Source of the DNA: Deltaproteobacteria bacterium
GTDB taxonomy: Bacteria > Desulfobacterota > Binatia > UBA9968
Assembly: GCA_016874755.1 (NCBI GenBank)
Contig: VGTH01000001.1
Coordinates: 124,001 to 188,000, forward strand
DNA: 64,000 nt
Direction: 5' to 3'
Shown here one piece after another: positions 3,067 through 42,256 of the stretch. The notes below the pieces were generated by a model that made no database searches, had not been told where the DNA came from, and saw only the letters and a program-made list of their open reading frames with translations. Every line of letters starts with the position of its first letter. Position 1 is the stretch's first letter. The translations under genes and the position numbers were made by a program.

Positions 3067-4206
3067 ATGGCATCGACAACCACAACGACGGCCACGCTGC
3101 GCAGCGATGGCCTGCGCGACGGCGTGCTGCGGCTTGCCATCGAAGGCCGGCTCGACGCCAATAGCACGGGCGCCATTTGGCGCCAAGCCGACGCCAGCGT
3201 GACGAAAGCCAAAGCCAACACCGCCGTGCTCGATGCTTCGCAGGTCGACTACTGTGACGGCTCGGGCATCGCTCTACTGATCCACCTGCGCCAGCAGCAG
3301 GAAAAGCTGCGCGGCAGTTTGCGCATCGAAGGGCTGCGGCCGGAGTTTCAAGAACTGCTCGATGATTGGTCGCCCGGTTCTGTCGAACTCGAAACGAAAA
3401 AGCCGAAACCATCGGTGCGCTTGGCGGAAGAGATCGGCCAAGGCGCCGTGGAAGTTTGGCGTGACATTCACACGCTGGTTTCCTTTGTCGGGGAGTTGGG
3501 CGCGGCGCTCTTCAAAGCCGCACTCCAGCCGCGCACGATCCGCTGGAATGAGACCCTGAGGGCCGCTGAAGAAGTCGGCGTCAACGCCTTGCCCATTGTT
3601 GCCATGCTGAGTTTTCTGGTCGGCATCATCATGGCGTTCCAAGCCGCCGTGCCGCTGCGCCAATTTGGCGCCGAGATTTTTGTCGCCAACATGATCGGCC
3701 TTTCCGTGCTGCGTGAGATGGGGCCGCTGATGACGGCGATTATTCTCGCCGGCCGTTCCGGCTCCGCCTTTGCCGCCGAAATCGGCACAATGAAGGTGCG
3801 CGAAGAGATCGACGCGCTGAAAACCATGGGGCTTGAACCGGTGCGCTTTTTAGTCGTGCCGCGGGTCATCGCCGCCGTCGTGATGACGCCGGTGTTGACG
3901 GTCTTTGCCGACCTTTTGGGCATCATGGGCGGCTCGGTCGTCATGCTCTCGCTCGGCTTTCCGTTGGTCACTTTTTTCAATCAGCTTCAGTCGGCGGTCA
4001 GTTATGGTTCGCTGGTGGGCGGTTTGGTGAAGGCGTTGGCGTTTGGCATTCTCATCGCTGCCATCGGCTGCCTGCGCGGTCTCCAGACGCAAACCGGCGC
4101 CAGCGCCGTCGGACTTTCGACCACCCATGCGGTGGTGAGCGGGATCGTGTTGATCGTCATCACCGACGGAATTTTCTCCGTCATTTACTATTATCTTTGG
4201 GTTTGA
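3067..4206 (+). CDS. mlaE: STAS-MlaE fusion, ABC lipid-transport permease
   Basis: 379 residues. An N-terminal STAS-like domain (about 1-100, with VLDASQVDYCDGSGIALL) is fused to an MlaE permease carrying the EIGTMKVREEIDALKTMG loop and several hydrophobic helices. In E. coli the STAS protein MlaB is separate; fusion to MlaE is a common variant. The protein should form the inner-membrane part of a phospholipid or hydrophobic-solute importer/exporter with the ATPase and MCE protein encoded next. First gene of a tight operon; the MlaF GTG start lies 4 nt after its stop. Confidence 0.93.
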   Translation: MASTTTTTATLRSDGLRDGVLRLAIEGRLDANSTGAIWRQADASVTKAKANTAVLDASQVDYCDGSGIALLIHLRQQQEKLRGSLRIEGLRPEFQELLDDWSPGSVELETKKPKPSVRLAEEIGQGAVEVWRDIHTLVSFVGELGAALFKAALQPRTIRWNETLRAAEEVGVNALPIVAMLSFLVGIIMAFQAAVPLRQFGAEIFVANMIGLSVLREMGPLMTAIILAGRSGSAFAAEIGTMKVREEIDALKTMGLEPVRFLVVPRVIAAVVMTPVLTVFADLLGIMGGSVVMLSLGFPLVTFFNQLQSAVSYGSLVGGLVKALAFGILIAAIGCLRGLQTQTGASAVGLSTTHAVVSGIVLIVITDGIFSVIYYYLWV

Positions 4207-36839: not shown

Positions 36840-36874
36840 TTCGTTGACTCAGCCTTGGCCATTGATTATCTTAT

Positions 36875-36899
36875 ATATCAGACTGAATCAGTAGGATAT
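36875..36899. promoter_or_regulatory. Candidate IscR/Rrf2 operator (type-1-like)
   Basis: A 25-bp palindrome reading ATATCAGACTGAATCAGTAG then GATAT. Compared with the E. coli IscR type-1 consensus (ATA-SYY-GACT-RWWW-YAGT-C-RRS-TAT), 21 of 25 positions agree, including GACT, AGT and the outer ATA/TAT. It overlaps the ATG at 36898 of the first Fe-S gene. The operon encodes an Rrf2/IscR-like protein at 41281, so autoregulation is the simple reading. Confidence 0.65.
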
Positions 36900-38130
36900 G
36901 CCGAGCATCATGAAAACGCCGATTTATTTGGATAATCACGCCACCACGCCGGTGGATCCGCGGGTGCTGGAAGCGATGCTGCCCTATTTCGGCGACAAAT
37001 TTGGCAACGCGGCGAGTAAGAGCCATGCGTTTGGTTGGGAGGCGGACTCTGCGGTCGATACGGCACGCGAGCAGGTGGCTAAGTTGATTCATGCGGCGTC
37101 GCCGCGCGAGATCGTTTTCACCAGCGGCGCAACGGAGTCGGATAATCTGGCGATTAAGGGCGTCGCCGAGGCGTACAAAGAAAAAGGCAATCATATCGTC
37201 ACCTGCGTGACCGAGCACAAGGCGGTGCTCGATAGCTGCAAAATATTGCAGAAGCATGGCTTCGAGGTGACCTCTCTGCCGGTGCGGCCGGATGGGTTGA
37301 TCGATCTGCAAAGATTGCGCAGCGCGCTGACTGACAAGACGATCTTGGTTTCGATCATGGCGGCCAACAATGAGATCGGCACGATCCACCCGGTGAAAGA
37401 GATCGGCCGCATGACGCGCGAGCGCGGGATCTTTTTTCACACCGACGCTACTCAGGCGGTGGGTAAAGTACCGATCGACGTCGATGATCTGTGCATCGAC
37501 CTACTGTCGATCACGGCGCACAAAATGTATGGCCCCAAGGGTGTCGGCGCTTTGTATGTGCGCTCAAAAAATCCGCGGGTAAAACTGACGCAGCAAATCG
37601 ATGGCGGCGGTCACGAGCAGGGAATGCGCTCGGGGACGTTGAACGTGCCGGGAATCGTCGGGTTGGGCGCCGCCTGCGCGCTGGCGCAGAAAGAGATGGC
37701 CGCCGAAGGCGAGCGCATGATCGCACTGCGCGAGCGGCTGCGCCAGGGCATCATGAGCCAGCTCGACGACGTGCGGATCAACGGTCACGCGACCGAGCGG
37801 CTGCCGGGTAACCTCAATATGAGCTTTGCCTACGTCGAAGGGGAATCGTTATTGATGGGGCTCAAAGAAATCGCCGTGTCCACTGGCTCCGCGTGCACCT
37901 CGGCCAATCTGGAGCCGTCCCACGTGTTGAAAGCGATCGGGCTTGAAGACGAGCTGGCACACACGTCAATTCGTTTCGGCTTGGGCCGGTTCAATACTGA
38001 GGAAGAGGTCGATTACACGATCGGTCGAGTTGTCGAAGAAGTGCGCCGGCTGCGCGAGATTTCGCCCCTGTACAAGGCGCGCAAAGCCAAACTGGCCAAA
38101 CAGCAATCTGGGGCGGAACCAATTTCTTAA
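36898..38130 (+). CDS. iscS: Cysteine desulfurase, IscS-type
   Basis: 410 residues. PLP-binding Lys-209 in [15 protein letters not shown]-stacking His in VTEHKAV; catalytic Cys-333 in [18 protein letters not shown] on an IscS-length mobile loop. It supplies sulfane sulfur for Fe-S assembly. An internal ATG at 36910 ([13 protein letters not shown]) is an alternative start; neither has a strong ribosome site, and the first overlaps the operator. First gene of a six-gene run with A-type carrier, SufB, second desulfurase and regulator. Confidence 0.95.
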
Positions 38131-38154: not shown

Positions 38155-38487
38155 ATGGCGATGGGAGTCACACTGACGGAACGGGCGGCCGCGCGGATCA
38201 AAGAGTTGATTGCCGCGGAGAATCGCGACGGCCAAGGGCTGCGCGTCAAAGTCATCGGCGGCGGCTGTTCAGGCTTGCAGTATAAAGTCGATCTCGATGC
38301 GCCCAAGGGCACCGACAAGATCTTCGAGAAAGACGGCGCCAAGGTGCTGGTCGATATGAAGAGCCTACTCTATTTGGGCGGCACCGAGTTGGATTACAAA
38401 GATGAATTGATGCAATCGGGATTTGTTTTTCAAAATCCCAACGTGAAAAAAGCCTGCGGCTGTGGCGCGTCGTTCGCAGTGTCGTAA
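38155..38487 (+). CDS. A-type Fe-S carrier (IscA/ErpA/HesB family)
   Basis: 110 residues with the three conserved cysteines C38 (GGGCSGLQY), C101 and C103 (ACGCGASF). It would receive or deliver clusters assembled by the neighbouring machinery. AAGGAG precedes the ATG at 6-nt spacing. 24 bp after the iscS stop. Confidence 0.95.
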   Translation: MAMGVTLTERAAARIKELIAAENRDGQGLRVKVIGGGCSGLQYKVDLDAPKGTDKIFEKDGAKVLVDMKSLLYLGGTELDYKDELMQSGFVFQNPNVKKACGCGASFAVS

Positions 38488-38623: not shown

Positions 38624-40072
38624 ATGTCTACCGTAGAAGAGCTGGCGCAGCAGGAATACAAATGGGGTTTTGTCACCGACATCGCCGCCGACACGGTGCC
38701 CCCAGGGCTAAACGAAGATGTCGTTCAGCTGATTTCGGCCAAGAAAAACGAGCCGGCGTTCATGCTCGAGTGGCGGCTTAAGGCCTATCGCCATTGGGCC
38801 AAGCTGGAGAAGAGCCAAGCCGAACCGAAATGGGCGAAGGTTCATTATCCAGCGATCGACTATCAAGCGATCAGCTACTATTCGGCGCCCAAGGCAAAAG
38901 CCGACGGGCCGAAGAGTTTAGAAGAAGTCGACCCTGAGCTGCTCAAGACCTACGAGAAATTGGGCATTCCGCTCAAAGAGCAGGAACGCTTGAGCGGCAT
39001 CGCCGTCGATGCGGTGTTCGATAGCGTCTCGGTGGCGACAACTTTCAAAGGCAAATTGGCCGAGATGGGGGTGATTTTTTGCTCGTTCTCGGAGGCGGTG
39101 CAGAATCATCCTGACCTGGTGCAGAAATATTTAGGCTCAGTGGTGCCTTATACTGACAACTTTTTCGCGGCCTTGAATTCGGCGGTCTTTAGCGACGGTT
39201 CTTTTTGCTACATCCCGAAAGATGTCCGCTGCCCGATGGAGCTGTCGACCTATTTTCGCATTAACGCCGCGGAGACCGGGCAGTTCGAGCGCACGCTGAT
39301 CGTCGCCGACGAGCGTGCCTATGTCAGCTATCTCGAAGGCTGCACCGCGCCGATGCGCGATAAAAATCAGCTCCATGCCGCGGTGGTCGAGCTGGTGGCC
39401 CATGACGACGCGCAGATCAAGTATTCCACCGTGCAGAACTGGTACCCGGGCGACAAAGAGGGCAAGGGCGGCATTTATAACTTCGTCACCAAGCGCGGCA
39501 AATGCCTGGGCAAGCGCTCGAAGATTTCCTGGACCCAGGTGGAGACCGGCTCGGCGATTACCTGGAAGTATCCCAGTTGTATCCTGCAGGGCGACGATTC
39601 GGCGGGTGAGTTCTACTCGGTGGCGCTGACGAATAATTATCAACAGGCCGACACCGGCACCAAGATGATTCACATGGGCAAGAACACCAAGAGCACGATT
39701 ATTTCGAAGGGCATCTCCGCCGGCCATGGACAGAACACCTATCGCGGTTTGGTCAAGGTGCTGAAGGGCGCCAGCGGCGCGCGCAACTACTCGCAGTGCG
39801 ATTCCTTGCTGCTGGGCGACAAGTGCGGCGCGCATACTTTCCCTTACCTGGAAGTGGCCAACAGCGGCGCGCAGGTGGAGCATGAGGCATCGACTTCGAA
39901 GATCGGCGAAGACCAGTTGTTTTATTGCCGGCAGCGCGGCATCTCCAATGAAGACGCCGTCAATATGATCGTCAACGGTTTTTGCAAGCAGGTTTTCAAA
40001 GAGCTGCCGATGGAGTTCGCGGTGGAAGCGCAGAAGCTATTGGGTGTCAGCCTCGAGGGCAGCGTCGGATGA
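38624..40072 (+). CDS. sufB: Fe-S scaffold SufB
   Basis: 482 residues, full SufB length. Conserved features are [54 protein letters not shown] and the C-terminal [25 protein letters not shown] precedes the ATG. SufB normally works with the ATPase SufC and with SufD; neither follows here, and the stop overlaps the start of a second cysteine desulfurase (ATGA). Confidence 0.96.
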
Positions 40073-41277
40073 TTAAAGAAGTCTACTTTGACAACAACGC
40101 GACGACGCGGGTGATTCCTGAAGTCATCGATGCGATGGTGCCATTTCTCGGTGAATACTATGGCAACCCGTCGAGTATTCATCGCTTCGGCAGCGGCGTC
40201 GGCCAAAAGCTCGCTGAGGCGCGGCCGCAGGTCGCCAAGCTGATCGGCGCCGCCGATCCCGTGGAAATTATTTTCACCAGCTGCGGCACCGAAGGCGACA
40301 ACGCGGCGATTCGCGGCATGCTCGAGGCGCGGCCGGACAAACGCCATATCGTCACGACGCAGGTGGAGCATCCCGCGGTGCTACAGCTATGCCAGCACCT
40401 GGAGAAAAAAGGCTGGCGGGTGACCTGGCTGGGGGTCGACGAAAATGGCGCACTCGATTTGGACGAGCTGCGCGCTGCCTTGAGCGACGACACGGCGCTG
40501 GTTTCGGTCATGCACGCCAACAATGAAACCGGCGTGATTTTTCCGATCGACAAAATTGCCGAGATTGTCCGGGCCAAGGGCATCCCGTTCCACGTCGATG
40601 CGGTGCAAACCGCCGGAAAAATTCCCATCGACGTCCGGGCCAGCGGCGTCGATTTGCTCACGATATCCGGCCACAAATTTCACGGTCCCAAGGGGATTGG
40701 GGCGCTTTATGTGCGGCGCGGCATTACCTTCCCGCCCTTTTTGATCGGCGGACATCAAGAGAGAAACCGCCGTGCCGGCACCGAAAACGTCGCGGGCATT
40801 ATCGGCATGGGTAAAGCTGCGGAGCTGGCATTTACGCGCCTGGGCGATTATGGCAGCCAAGTTCGGGCGCTGCGGGACCAGTTGGAACAGTCGTTATCGG
40901 CATCTGGATTGGAGATTCGTATCAACGGACAGTCGCAGGAGCGCTTGCCGAACACTTCCAACGTGAGTTTTCGTTATTTGGAGGGGGAGTCCATCCTGGT
41001 TTTGCTCGATCAGCAGGGCATTTGTGCCTCGACGGGTTCGGCGTGCACGGCGGGGTCGTCCGAGCCGTCGCATGTGCTGCGCGCGATGAAAGTGCCGACG
41101 GACTGGCTCCAAGGCGCGGTGCGATTTAGCCTGAGTCGACTAAATAGCGCCGATGAAGTCGATTACGTGAACGAAAAGTTGCCGCCAATCGTCCAAAGAC
41201 TAAAGGGGTTTTCCGCATTGGGCCGTTTGGGGGAGCGCTCGGCAACGGTTGCCTCCAATCTCGGAGCAAGGGGGTAG
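40069..41277 (+). CDS. Cysteine desulfurase, NifS-type
   Basis: 402 residues from ATG 40069, which overlaps the sufB stop; an upstream frame from 39982 lies inside sufB and is rejected. PLP Lys-203 in [12 protein letters not shown], catalytic Cys-326 in [20 protein letters not shown]. The class I loop length makes it NifS/IscS-like rather than SufS-like. It differs from the first desulfurase across the length, so this is not a recent duplication. Its placement suggests dedicated sulfur donation to SufB. Confidence 0.94.
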
Positions 41278-41280
41278 CCG

Positions 41281-41733
41281 ATGAGCCTGATGCAGATACC
41301 GCGGCGAGTGGATTACGGCCTTAGAGCGGTGATTTATCTTGCCAGCCAGAGTTCGGAGAAGTGCTGCTCGATTGCGGAAATTGCCCAGGAACAGGGAGTG
41401 CCGAAGAAGTTTTTGGAGAAGATCATTCAAGATCTCATGCGCAAGGGTTTGATCAAGTCCAAGCGCGGCGCCAATGGCGGCTACGTGCTGGCGCGGCCCG
41501 CGGAGACGATCTCCTTCTACGATGTCATTGAGGCCATTGAAGGGCCTATTGCAGTCAATGCTTGCATGGACTCCCATGTGTCCTGCGACCAAATGCCGCG
41601 CTGCACCATGATCGGTGTCTGGAGCGAAGTGCAGAAAAAAATCACGGAGGTTTTTACCCGGACAACAATTGCCGATTTACGACAAACACCTTGCCGGGAT
41701 TTGTTGACTTCTTCTCTTTCGAGTGCGGCATGA
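41281..41733 (+). CDS. Rrf2-family regulator, IscR-like
   Basis: 150 residues. Winged-helix N-terminus (RRVDYGLRAVIYLASQ, IAQEQGVPKKFLEKIIQDLM, KSKRGANGGYVLARP) and three cysteines C95, C102, C108 (ACMDSHVSCDQMPRC) placed like the cluster ligands of IscR. It begins 3 nt after the preceding stop. A regulator of the operon it lies in is the obvious reading; the palindrome at 36875 is a candidate target. Confidence 0.92.
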   Translation: MSLMQIPRRVDYGLRAVIYLASQSSEKCCSIAEIAQEQGVPKKFLEKIIQDLMRKGLIKSKRGANGGYVLARPAETISFYDVIEAIEGPIAVNACMDSHVSCDQMPRCTMIGVWSEVQKKITEVFTRTTIADLRQTPCRDLLTSSLSSAA

Positions 41734-41797
41734 CACGGATCGAATATTGCTTTGTTGGTCGTGACTTCAGGCCGTACCCAATAGGGAGGTGGCGTTT

Positions 41798-42256
41798 ATG
41801 AGTTATGAAACAGGATTGAGCATGGAAGAGCGGGTTACGTCGCTCTTTCAGCCCGACACTTTGCTGCCGGAGCAGTTCCTCGATACTTTCCGGCGCAAAC
41901 TGCATTTAGAGCCGGAAAAGAAGCTTATGCTTGCGGTGCTCGAGGACGCCGTGGCGTGCTATCAGAAATATCTGTTTGCGCGCGATGGCAAAGGCAAGAC
42001 GCTGTTCCGCGAGACCGAAGAGTGGGTGATAGACGATCACGGCGATTGGCTGTTTTCGTTTGCCAACGTGTGCGACTTGTTGGGCTTCGAAGCCGACTAT
42101 CTTCGCCAAGGTTTGTTGAAATGGAAGGAACGCCGGCTGGCAGAACATACGCAGGCGAAAGTCTACACGTTAACGACGGAGCGGCCGAAGAACCGGCGCG
42201 GCGGCGCAGTGGCGCACCCCGCTCGGCGGCGGTTGCGGCGGGCCGCCAGCCGGTAA
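41798..42256 (+). CDS. Conserved hypothetical protein next to the Fe-S operon
   Basis: 152 residues from ATG 41798, with GGGAGG upstream. Mostly helical; conserved-looking stretches are LAVLEDAVACYQKYLFARDG, WLFSFANVCDLLGFEADYL and LRQGLLKWKER, followed by a basic tail rich in Arg. The central part suggests a small DNA- or RNA-associated protein but I cannot name a family. A strong terminator follows, so it may be the last gene of the Fe-S transcription unit. Confidence 0.75.
   Translation: MSYETGLSMEERVTSLFQPDTLLPEQFLDTFRRKLHLEPEKKLMLAVLEDAVACYQKYLFARDGKGKTLFRETEEWVIDDHGDWLFSFANVCDLLGFEADYLRQGLLKWKERRLAEHTQAKVYTLTTERPKNRRGGAVAHPARRRLRRAASR

Follow-up and report, generated by a model that had tools for sequence, protein, structure and literature searches.

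The window, a 64-kb stretch of a Binatia genome, contains an Fe-S operon in the order iscS-like, A-type carrier, sufB, nifS-like and rrf2, after which come a gene for a small conserved protein and one that is lipid A acyltransferase-like (Table 1). The product of the first gene lies above the cut-off of NF010611 and under that of TIGR02006 (605.7 bits, cut-off 643.2), and the carrier protein is under the cut-off of the IscA, ErpA and SufA equivalogs. A promoter and a palindrome precede the operon, and a second Rrf2 paralogue is found at the head of a suf locus elsewhere in the genome.

Table 1. Features of the Fe-S operon, its upstream region and the suf locus of the paralogue
Feature	Coordinates	Strand	Remarks
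-35 element TTGACT	36844..36849	+	TTGAC in 20/20 aligned promoters
-10 element TATCTT, 17-nt spacer	36867..36872	+	TANNNT at spacer 17 in 20/20 genomes
Putative operator, 25-bp imperfect palindrome	36875..36899	.	Conserved dyad; inferred span about -5 to +20
iscS-like cysteine desulfurase, first gene	36910..38130	+	NF010611 626.9 bits, cut-off 548
A-type Fe-S carrier (IscA/ErpA/SufA-like)	38155..38487	+	TIGR00049 above cut-off
sufB	38624..40072	+	Sole SufB found in genome; sufC/sufD elsewhere
nifS-like second cysteine desulfurase	40069..41277	+	TIGR03402 581.6 bits, cut-off 530.75
Rrf2 regulator, inferred cognate repressor	41281..41733	+	Pfam Rrf2; D11, C95, C102, C108 invariant
Conserved small protein adjoining rrf2	41789..42256	+	Without Pfam or NCBIfam match
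sufCDSU locus with second Rrf2	G000:C3:177000-182000 (L088)

The palindrome, ATATCAGACTGAATCAGTAGGATAT, is imperfect, with 10 of its 12 base pairs complementary by direct reading. Its core reads AGACT-N5-AGTAG, of which the right half deviates from the AGTCT found in most relatives, and the window's own copy is GAC-N7-GTA where the relatives' consensus is GAC-N7-GTC. The initial annotation had described a 25-bp palindrome with 21 of 25 positions in agreement with the E. coli IscR type-1 consensus, and this count (made against the E. coli string as quoted in the available text of PMC6599224) is confirmed. No other place in the window reaches 21, and the maximum in 20 Markov simulations of the window is 20 of 25. 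The same count gives 24 and 22 of 25 for the two sites upstream of E. coli iscR, and 16 to 21 of 25 across the 20 genomes in which the operator-like site was aligned. With a symmetric 25-bp matrix, trained on 16 relatives outside the genus of the window, the palindrome scores 31.3 bits, against 6.5 for the runner-up in the window and 15.1 for the best of 20 simulated windows. The palindrome is confirmed as real, well above chance and conserved. Its likeness to the type-1 consensus is unspecific, however, because it is mostly that of the GAC-N7-GTC core, which is common to several Rrf2 operators, including that of the second Rrf2 and the RisR sites of Myxococcus xanthus.

Comparison of 20 genomes aligned on the palindrome leads to another promoter than the TTGTTT-17-TATAAT of the initial annotation. 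The columns of that TATAAT hold 0.01-0.59 bits and those of TTGTTT 0.15-0.92 bits, versus 1.25-1.71 bits for a conserved TTGAC, which makes TTGACT-17-TATCTT (36844-36872) the most likely promoter. The rejected pair may be a second promoter, in the window's genome alone. The dyad begins 0-2 nt after the -10 element in all 20 genomes, and TTGA lies 29-31 nt ahead of the operator, whereas the distance from the operator to the aligned IscS start varies from 5 to 84 nt. As the distance to the promoter is fixed and that to the gene variable, the operator appears to be placed by the promoter, and its overlap with ATG 36898, to which the initial annotation had attached meaning, appears incidental. The other start that had been proposed, ATG 36910, fares better: 11 of 19 relatives have ATG at the codon aligned with it, and the remaining eight have their nearest start no more than 9 nt upstream. 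I therefore prefer ATG 36910 as the probable iscS start over ATG 36898, 12 nt upstream, which may still serve as such. Judged from the position of the -10 element, transcription would start near 36879-36880, which would put the operator at about -5 to +20.

A start near 36880 would also leave most of the palindrome transcribed, as expected of an RNA element in the leader, such as an attenuator or a riboswitch-like hairpin. I consider this highly improbable, as the leader shows no folding beyond that of shuffled sequences (z 1.00, with 178 of 200 shuffles folding equally well or better) and has no Rfam match at gathering score, and as the dyad in distant relatives starts 19-27 nt after TTGA, where it would overlap the -10 element.

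The family to which the window belongs comprises 25 genomes of Candidatus Binatia relatives, the window's own included. An iscS orthologue at E 1e-60 or better is present in 22 of them, with a readable upstream region in 21; left out were G008, in which iscS is cut before its start, and G003, G015 and G023, with no iscS match at E 1e-60. The expectation that the palindrome is conserved in relatives is borne out, as TTGAC-N17-TANNNT and the dyad precede iscS in 20 of the 21 readable genomes (in G005 the operator was placed by eye). The exception is G017, which was left out of the promoter model. A promoter profile, R1, was built from the 20 promoters with operators, and at most 150 candidates were scored per genome. 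It gives one full-length match, at E 3e-8 or better, in 20 of the 24 other family genomes, 19 of which are training rows that match by construction. The twentieth is the held-out G015, where the match (E 5.1e-10) sits at the end of a contig, with the start of iscS encoded by the bases after it. No match at E 0.01 was found among the candidates scored in G003, G008, G017 and G023, and the site of G017 itself gives E 0.63 with the profile. In G025, from a sister family of the same order, there is a site scoring 29.2 bits on the 25-bp matrix, but R1 missed it with 150 of 324 candidates scored.

More distant loci (L119-L139) encode an Rrf2 protein that is 47-55% identical, and where they are long enough they show the order iscS, gap, iscA, long gap, rrf2, small protein. 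In L119, the only distant locus whose gap genes were read, the gaps hold IscU and HscA above cut-off and an HscB-like protein under the HscB cut-offs, which has a DnaJ domain; a gene in the same locus is IscX-like by reading, while the scanned stretch, maybe out of frame, gave no match. Eight of the 21 ISC-type loci end before the region upstream of iscS is reached (L118 and L243 both denote one place in G025). A matching site is present in all 13 readable regions, with 6.5 to 26.9 bits and at most one of 300 shuffles scoring as high. As these sites lie 19-27 nt after TTGA, they would overlap the -10 element. Since the site occurs with ISC operons of distant relatives, the switch seems to predate the conversion of an ISC operon into today's hybrid. 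Separately, L122 carries a tandem pair of TTGAC-plus-palindrome units, one roughly 205 nt and the other roughly 100 nt upstream of its iscS match at 3166, an arrangement that looks like a duplication of promoter and operator. The records of L135 and L134, loci of Binatota type, are titled Klebsiella pneumoniae and Alphaproteobacteria bacterium, and these titles look wrong.

The operon-encoded protein at 41281-41733 belongs to the Rrf2 family (Pfam Rrf2, 145.7 bits, cut-off 30) and has C95, C102 and C108, as described in the initial annotation; together with D11, these are invariant in 21 orthologues. The same annotation had proposed an IscR circuit. Of that proposal, the part that stands as the likely reading of the sequence comparison is an operator serving an Rrf2 repressor whose gene lies in the operon itself, but IscR is too narrow a label. 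The protein is far under the cut-offs of the IscR equivalog models (TIGR02010, 86.1 vs 207.55; NF008110, 62.4 vs 275), and of the three Cys and one His that serve as ligands in IscR it has the three Cys, with I111 at the position of H107. In a tree, a branch of 1.46 with support of 100/100 parts it from E. coli IscR, the tree being midpoint-rooted, of a short protein and with several long branches. The NsrR equivalog NF008240 does not reach its cut-off either (80.1 vs 182), and the best specific NCBIfam model is TIGR02944, the Xanthomonas-type SUF regulator, at 94.7 bits with a cut-off of 110.65. An AlphaFold model with a mean pLDDT of 77.5 matches the fold of the CymR, Thermincola potens IscR, RsrR and IscR structures; it is poor at the Cys region 93-101, and hence does not test the cluster ligands. 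Because of the three Cys with D11, the retained E46 and R62, the missing His and the precedent of RisR, I expect the protein to be a holo repressor of RisR/IscR type with an NsrR-like ligand set. Two more Rrf2 proteins, which may be binders of the site as well, are encoded in the window's genome, on C13 and C37.

Orthologues of this regulator, with 60-100% identity, are present in 21 of the 25 family genomes. Of the 20 genomes carrying a window-type operator, all but one have the orthologous rrf2, in 17 cases on the same contig, and in the twentieth, G013, the contig stops about 600 bases after iscS. In the sister family, G025 has both the gene (64% identity) and the site. No orthologous rrf2 was found in the nine genomes of genus g15, where Rrf2 matches in eight genomes have only 26-42% identity (E 1.9e-27 or weaker) and one genome has none. 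The window-type site is also absent from all eight readable g15 iscS promoters, their best scores, -6.9 to -18.4, being reached by 8.7-91.7% of 300 shuffles, even though these promoters keep TTGACA. Three g15 operons (L264-L266) consist of uvrA, iscS, iscA, nifS and the acyltransferase gene, without rrf2. The site thus appears to track the operon's own rrf2, the losses amounting to only two events, one in a genus and one in a single genome. The small protein of 41789-42256 is encoded beside rrf2 in near and distant relatives and is retained in G017, and it was not found beside the three g15 operons without rrf2; that it is tied to the circuit is unproven.

The conservation of the site and its loss together with the 41281-type rrf2 gene argue against an unlinked regulator as its user, just as its margin over the window and the simulated windows argues against a chance likeness. 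I regard both of these explanations as very unlikely, although the core by itself occurs no more often in the genome than its control does (a scan with the 15-base core and at most two mismatches gave nine forward matches, and ten for the reversed control), and the putative operator role rests on comparison. On the 25-bp matrix none of the eight other core matches exceeds 7.5. Many equal-scoring sites elsewhere in the genome, which would have spoken against the initial annotation, did not turn up: with 150 of 368 profile candidates scored there is a single match at E up to 10, leaving no further target among them.

The second Rrf2 paralogue of the window's genome heads an operon of sufC, sufD, sufS, sufU and a SUF-associated gene, each above its NCBIfam cut-off, together with what by reading is a second SufT-like gene. 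Two genes in the genome match Pfam SUFBD_core. The one on C3 fits SufD (293.6 bits, cut-off 222) and does not reach the SufB cut-off (112.8 bits, cut-off 346.4), and therefore the sufB of the window is the only SufB found, and it lies at a distance from sufCD. In g15, sufB directly follows the paralogue in all eight loci (seven genomes), from which I infer that sufB moved from the suf operon to the window's operon. G025 holds another paralogue-like gene (C269), and beside the paralogue-like gene at L261 of this genome neither suf genes nor a paralogue-type site were found. The promoters of the paralogue, 21 in number from the 25 family genomes, carry an operator of their own, AGACCT-N3-AGGTCTA, between a TTGA element and TATATT or TATAAT in 20 cases; G014, with no clear site, was dropped from the matrix.

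As both operators have the GAC-N7-GTC frame, the palindrome of the window could instead be used by this second paralogue, either by itself or alongside the operon's own Rrf2. The cognate matrix gives 15.1 for four of the 20 paralogue sites, which makes cross-binding possible, and the isc operator of G017 fits the matrix of the paralogue. However, the 20 window-type operators fit that matrix poorly (-12.7 to 10.7), and g15 keeps the suf-linked paralogue and its operator (eight loci, seven genomes) without a window-type operator. The two proteins also differ at a residue of the recognition helix, E46 in the 41281 protein and Ser in the paralogue. Use by the paralogue is thus improbable for the window, and the operon's own Rrf2 is the preferred candidate.

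The situation in G017 is different. This genome is 98% complete and its operon (L086) lies inside a 245-kb contig, but the operon is without rrf2, and no remnant was found where one was looked for. Its operator core, AAGACCTACAAGGTCTA, scores 6.9 on the 17-bp matrix of the window type and 22.7 on that of the paralogue type (22.2 when the paralogue site of G017 itself is left out), the reverse of the 20 other operators, which reach 15.2 to 25.7 on the cognate matrix. The paralogue-type sequence RGACCTNNNAGGTCTA occurs exactly at three places in the genome, namely in the isc promoter, in the paralogue's own promoter and at L234; with one mismatch there are six forward and four reverse matches, versus four and one for the reversed control. 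At L234 (G017:C35:39686-39701) the site lies 22 nt upstream of a MoeB/ThiF-rhodanese gene, possibly a further target in sulfur transfer. My reading, which rests on one genome, is that the operator of G017 may have been converted to the paralogue type. A history in which sufB moved from the suf operon to the isc-like operon, after which G017 lost the repressor of the isc-like operon and the operator of that repressor was rewritten in place to the sequence of the suf-linked paralogue, is somewhat favoured; if true, sufB of G017 would have returned to the same control as sufCD.

Taken together, the palindrome is likely the operator of the Rrf2 protein of its own operon, with the cluster-bound form repressing and the apo form releasing it. 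An Fe-S cluster would be held by the three Cys of one subunit, probably with Asp11 of the other, and the holo dimer would sit just downstream of the -10 element, at about -5 to +20, where it would keep RNA polymerase from starting. When clusters become scarce, apo Rrf2 would let go of the operator, and iscS, the A-type carrier, sufB, nifS and rrf2 itself would be made. Such a feedback circuit on the Fe-S operon is well supported by comparison, which shows the site, its fixed place by a conserved promoter and its co-inheritance with rrf2; binding, repression as its direction, the cluster and the signal are predicted. In the parts of the literature available to the search, I found no account of this circuit in Binatota, and its novelty is judged within that search.

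These observations add a little-studied bacterial group to those with a predicted Fe-S feedback circuit, and they name the residues and bases concerned. The Rrf2 paralogues, whose operators have a common GAC-N7-GTC frame but differ inside it, and of which one regulator is lost in some genomes, offer a natural experiment on the co-evolution of repressor and operator, and an unusual record of both changing together. The separation of SufB from sufCD, under another Rrf2 switch, provides a testable case of the balance between subunits of a complex.

The proposed circuit shares with that of IscR the Rrf2 fold, three Cys, E43 and R59 (kept as E46 and R62), a 21 of 25 match to type 1 and, as predicted here, an autoregulated Fe-S operon. 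It differs in that the 41281 protein has no His ligand (I111), has D11 for R8, and has K43 and K47 for the IscR contacts S40 and Q44 (DNA contacts as given in the accessible part of PMC9338935), and in that its gene is the last of the operon, not the first. The P. aeruginosa IscR sites, with 68% and 76% identity to the type-1 consensus, lie upstream at -18 to -42 and -43 to -67, according to the portion of PMC6599224 at hand, while the operator of the window lies downstream of the -10 element. In NsrR of Streptomyces coelicolor, one of the cluster ligands is Asp8, contributed by the opposite subunit (PMC5411485, in the text available), and D11 of the 41281 protein aligns with this residue at an offset of 3. 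NsrR senses NO, however, and its sequence match to the 41281 protein is weak (E 2.8e-6). The Xanthomonas-type SUF regulator is the nearest specific model, yet under its cut-off. The second paralogue of the same genome has the same operator frame, an Asp with three Cys and a place at the head of an Fe-S operon; it differs by an identity of 35-42%, by an operator of its own between -35 and -10, and by Ser at the position of E46. M. xanthus RisR is an Rrf2 protein outside the IscR group that heads sufBCDSUT and controls two operons. As holo-RisR it represses from T(t/g)GAC-N7-GTCC(t/a), with a footprint on the -10 element and the start at the isc promoter and on the -35 and -10 elements at the suf promoter (all from the available sections of PMC9973013). 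Compared by these published features, the circuit of the window likewise has a non-IscR Rrf2 protein, a GAC-N7-GTC palindrome over promoter or start and, as predicted here, a repressing holo form, but RisR is itself suf-linked, whereas the suf-linked Rrf2 of the window's genome is a separate paralogue.
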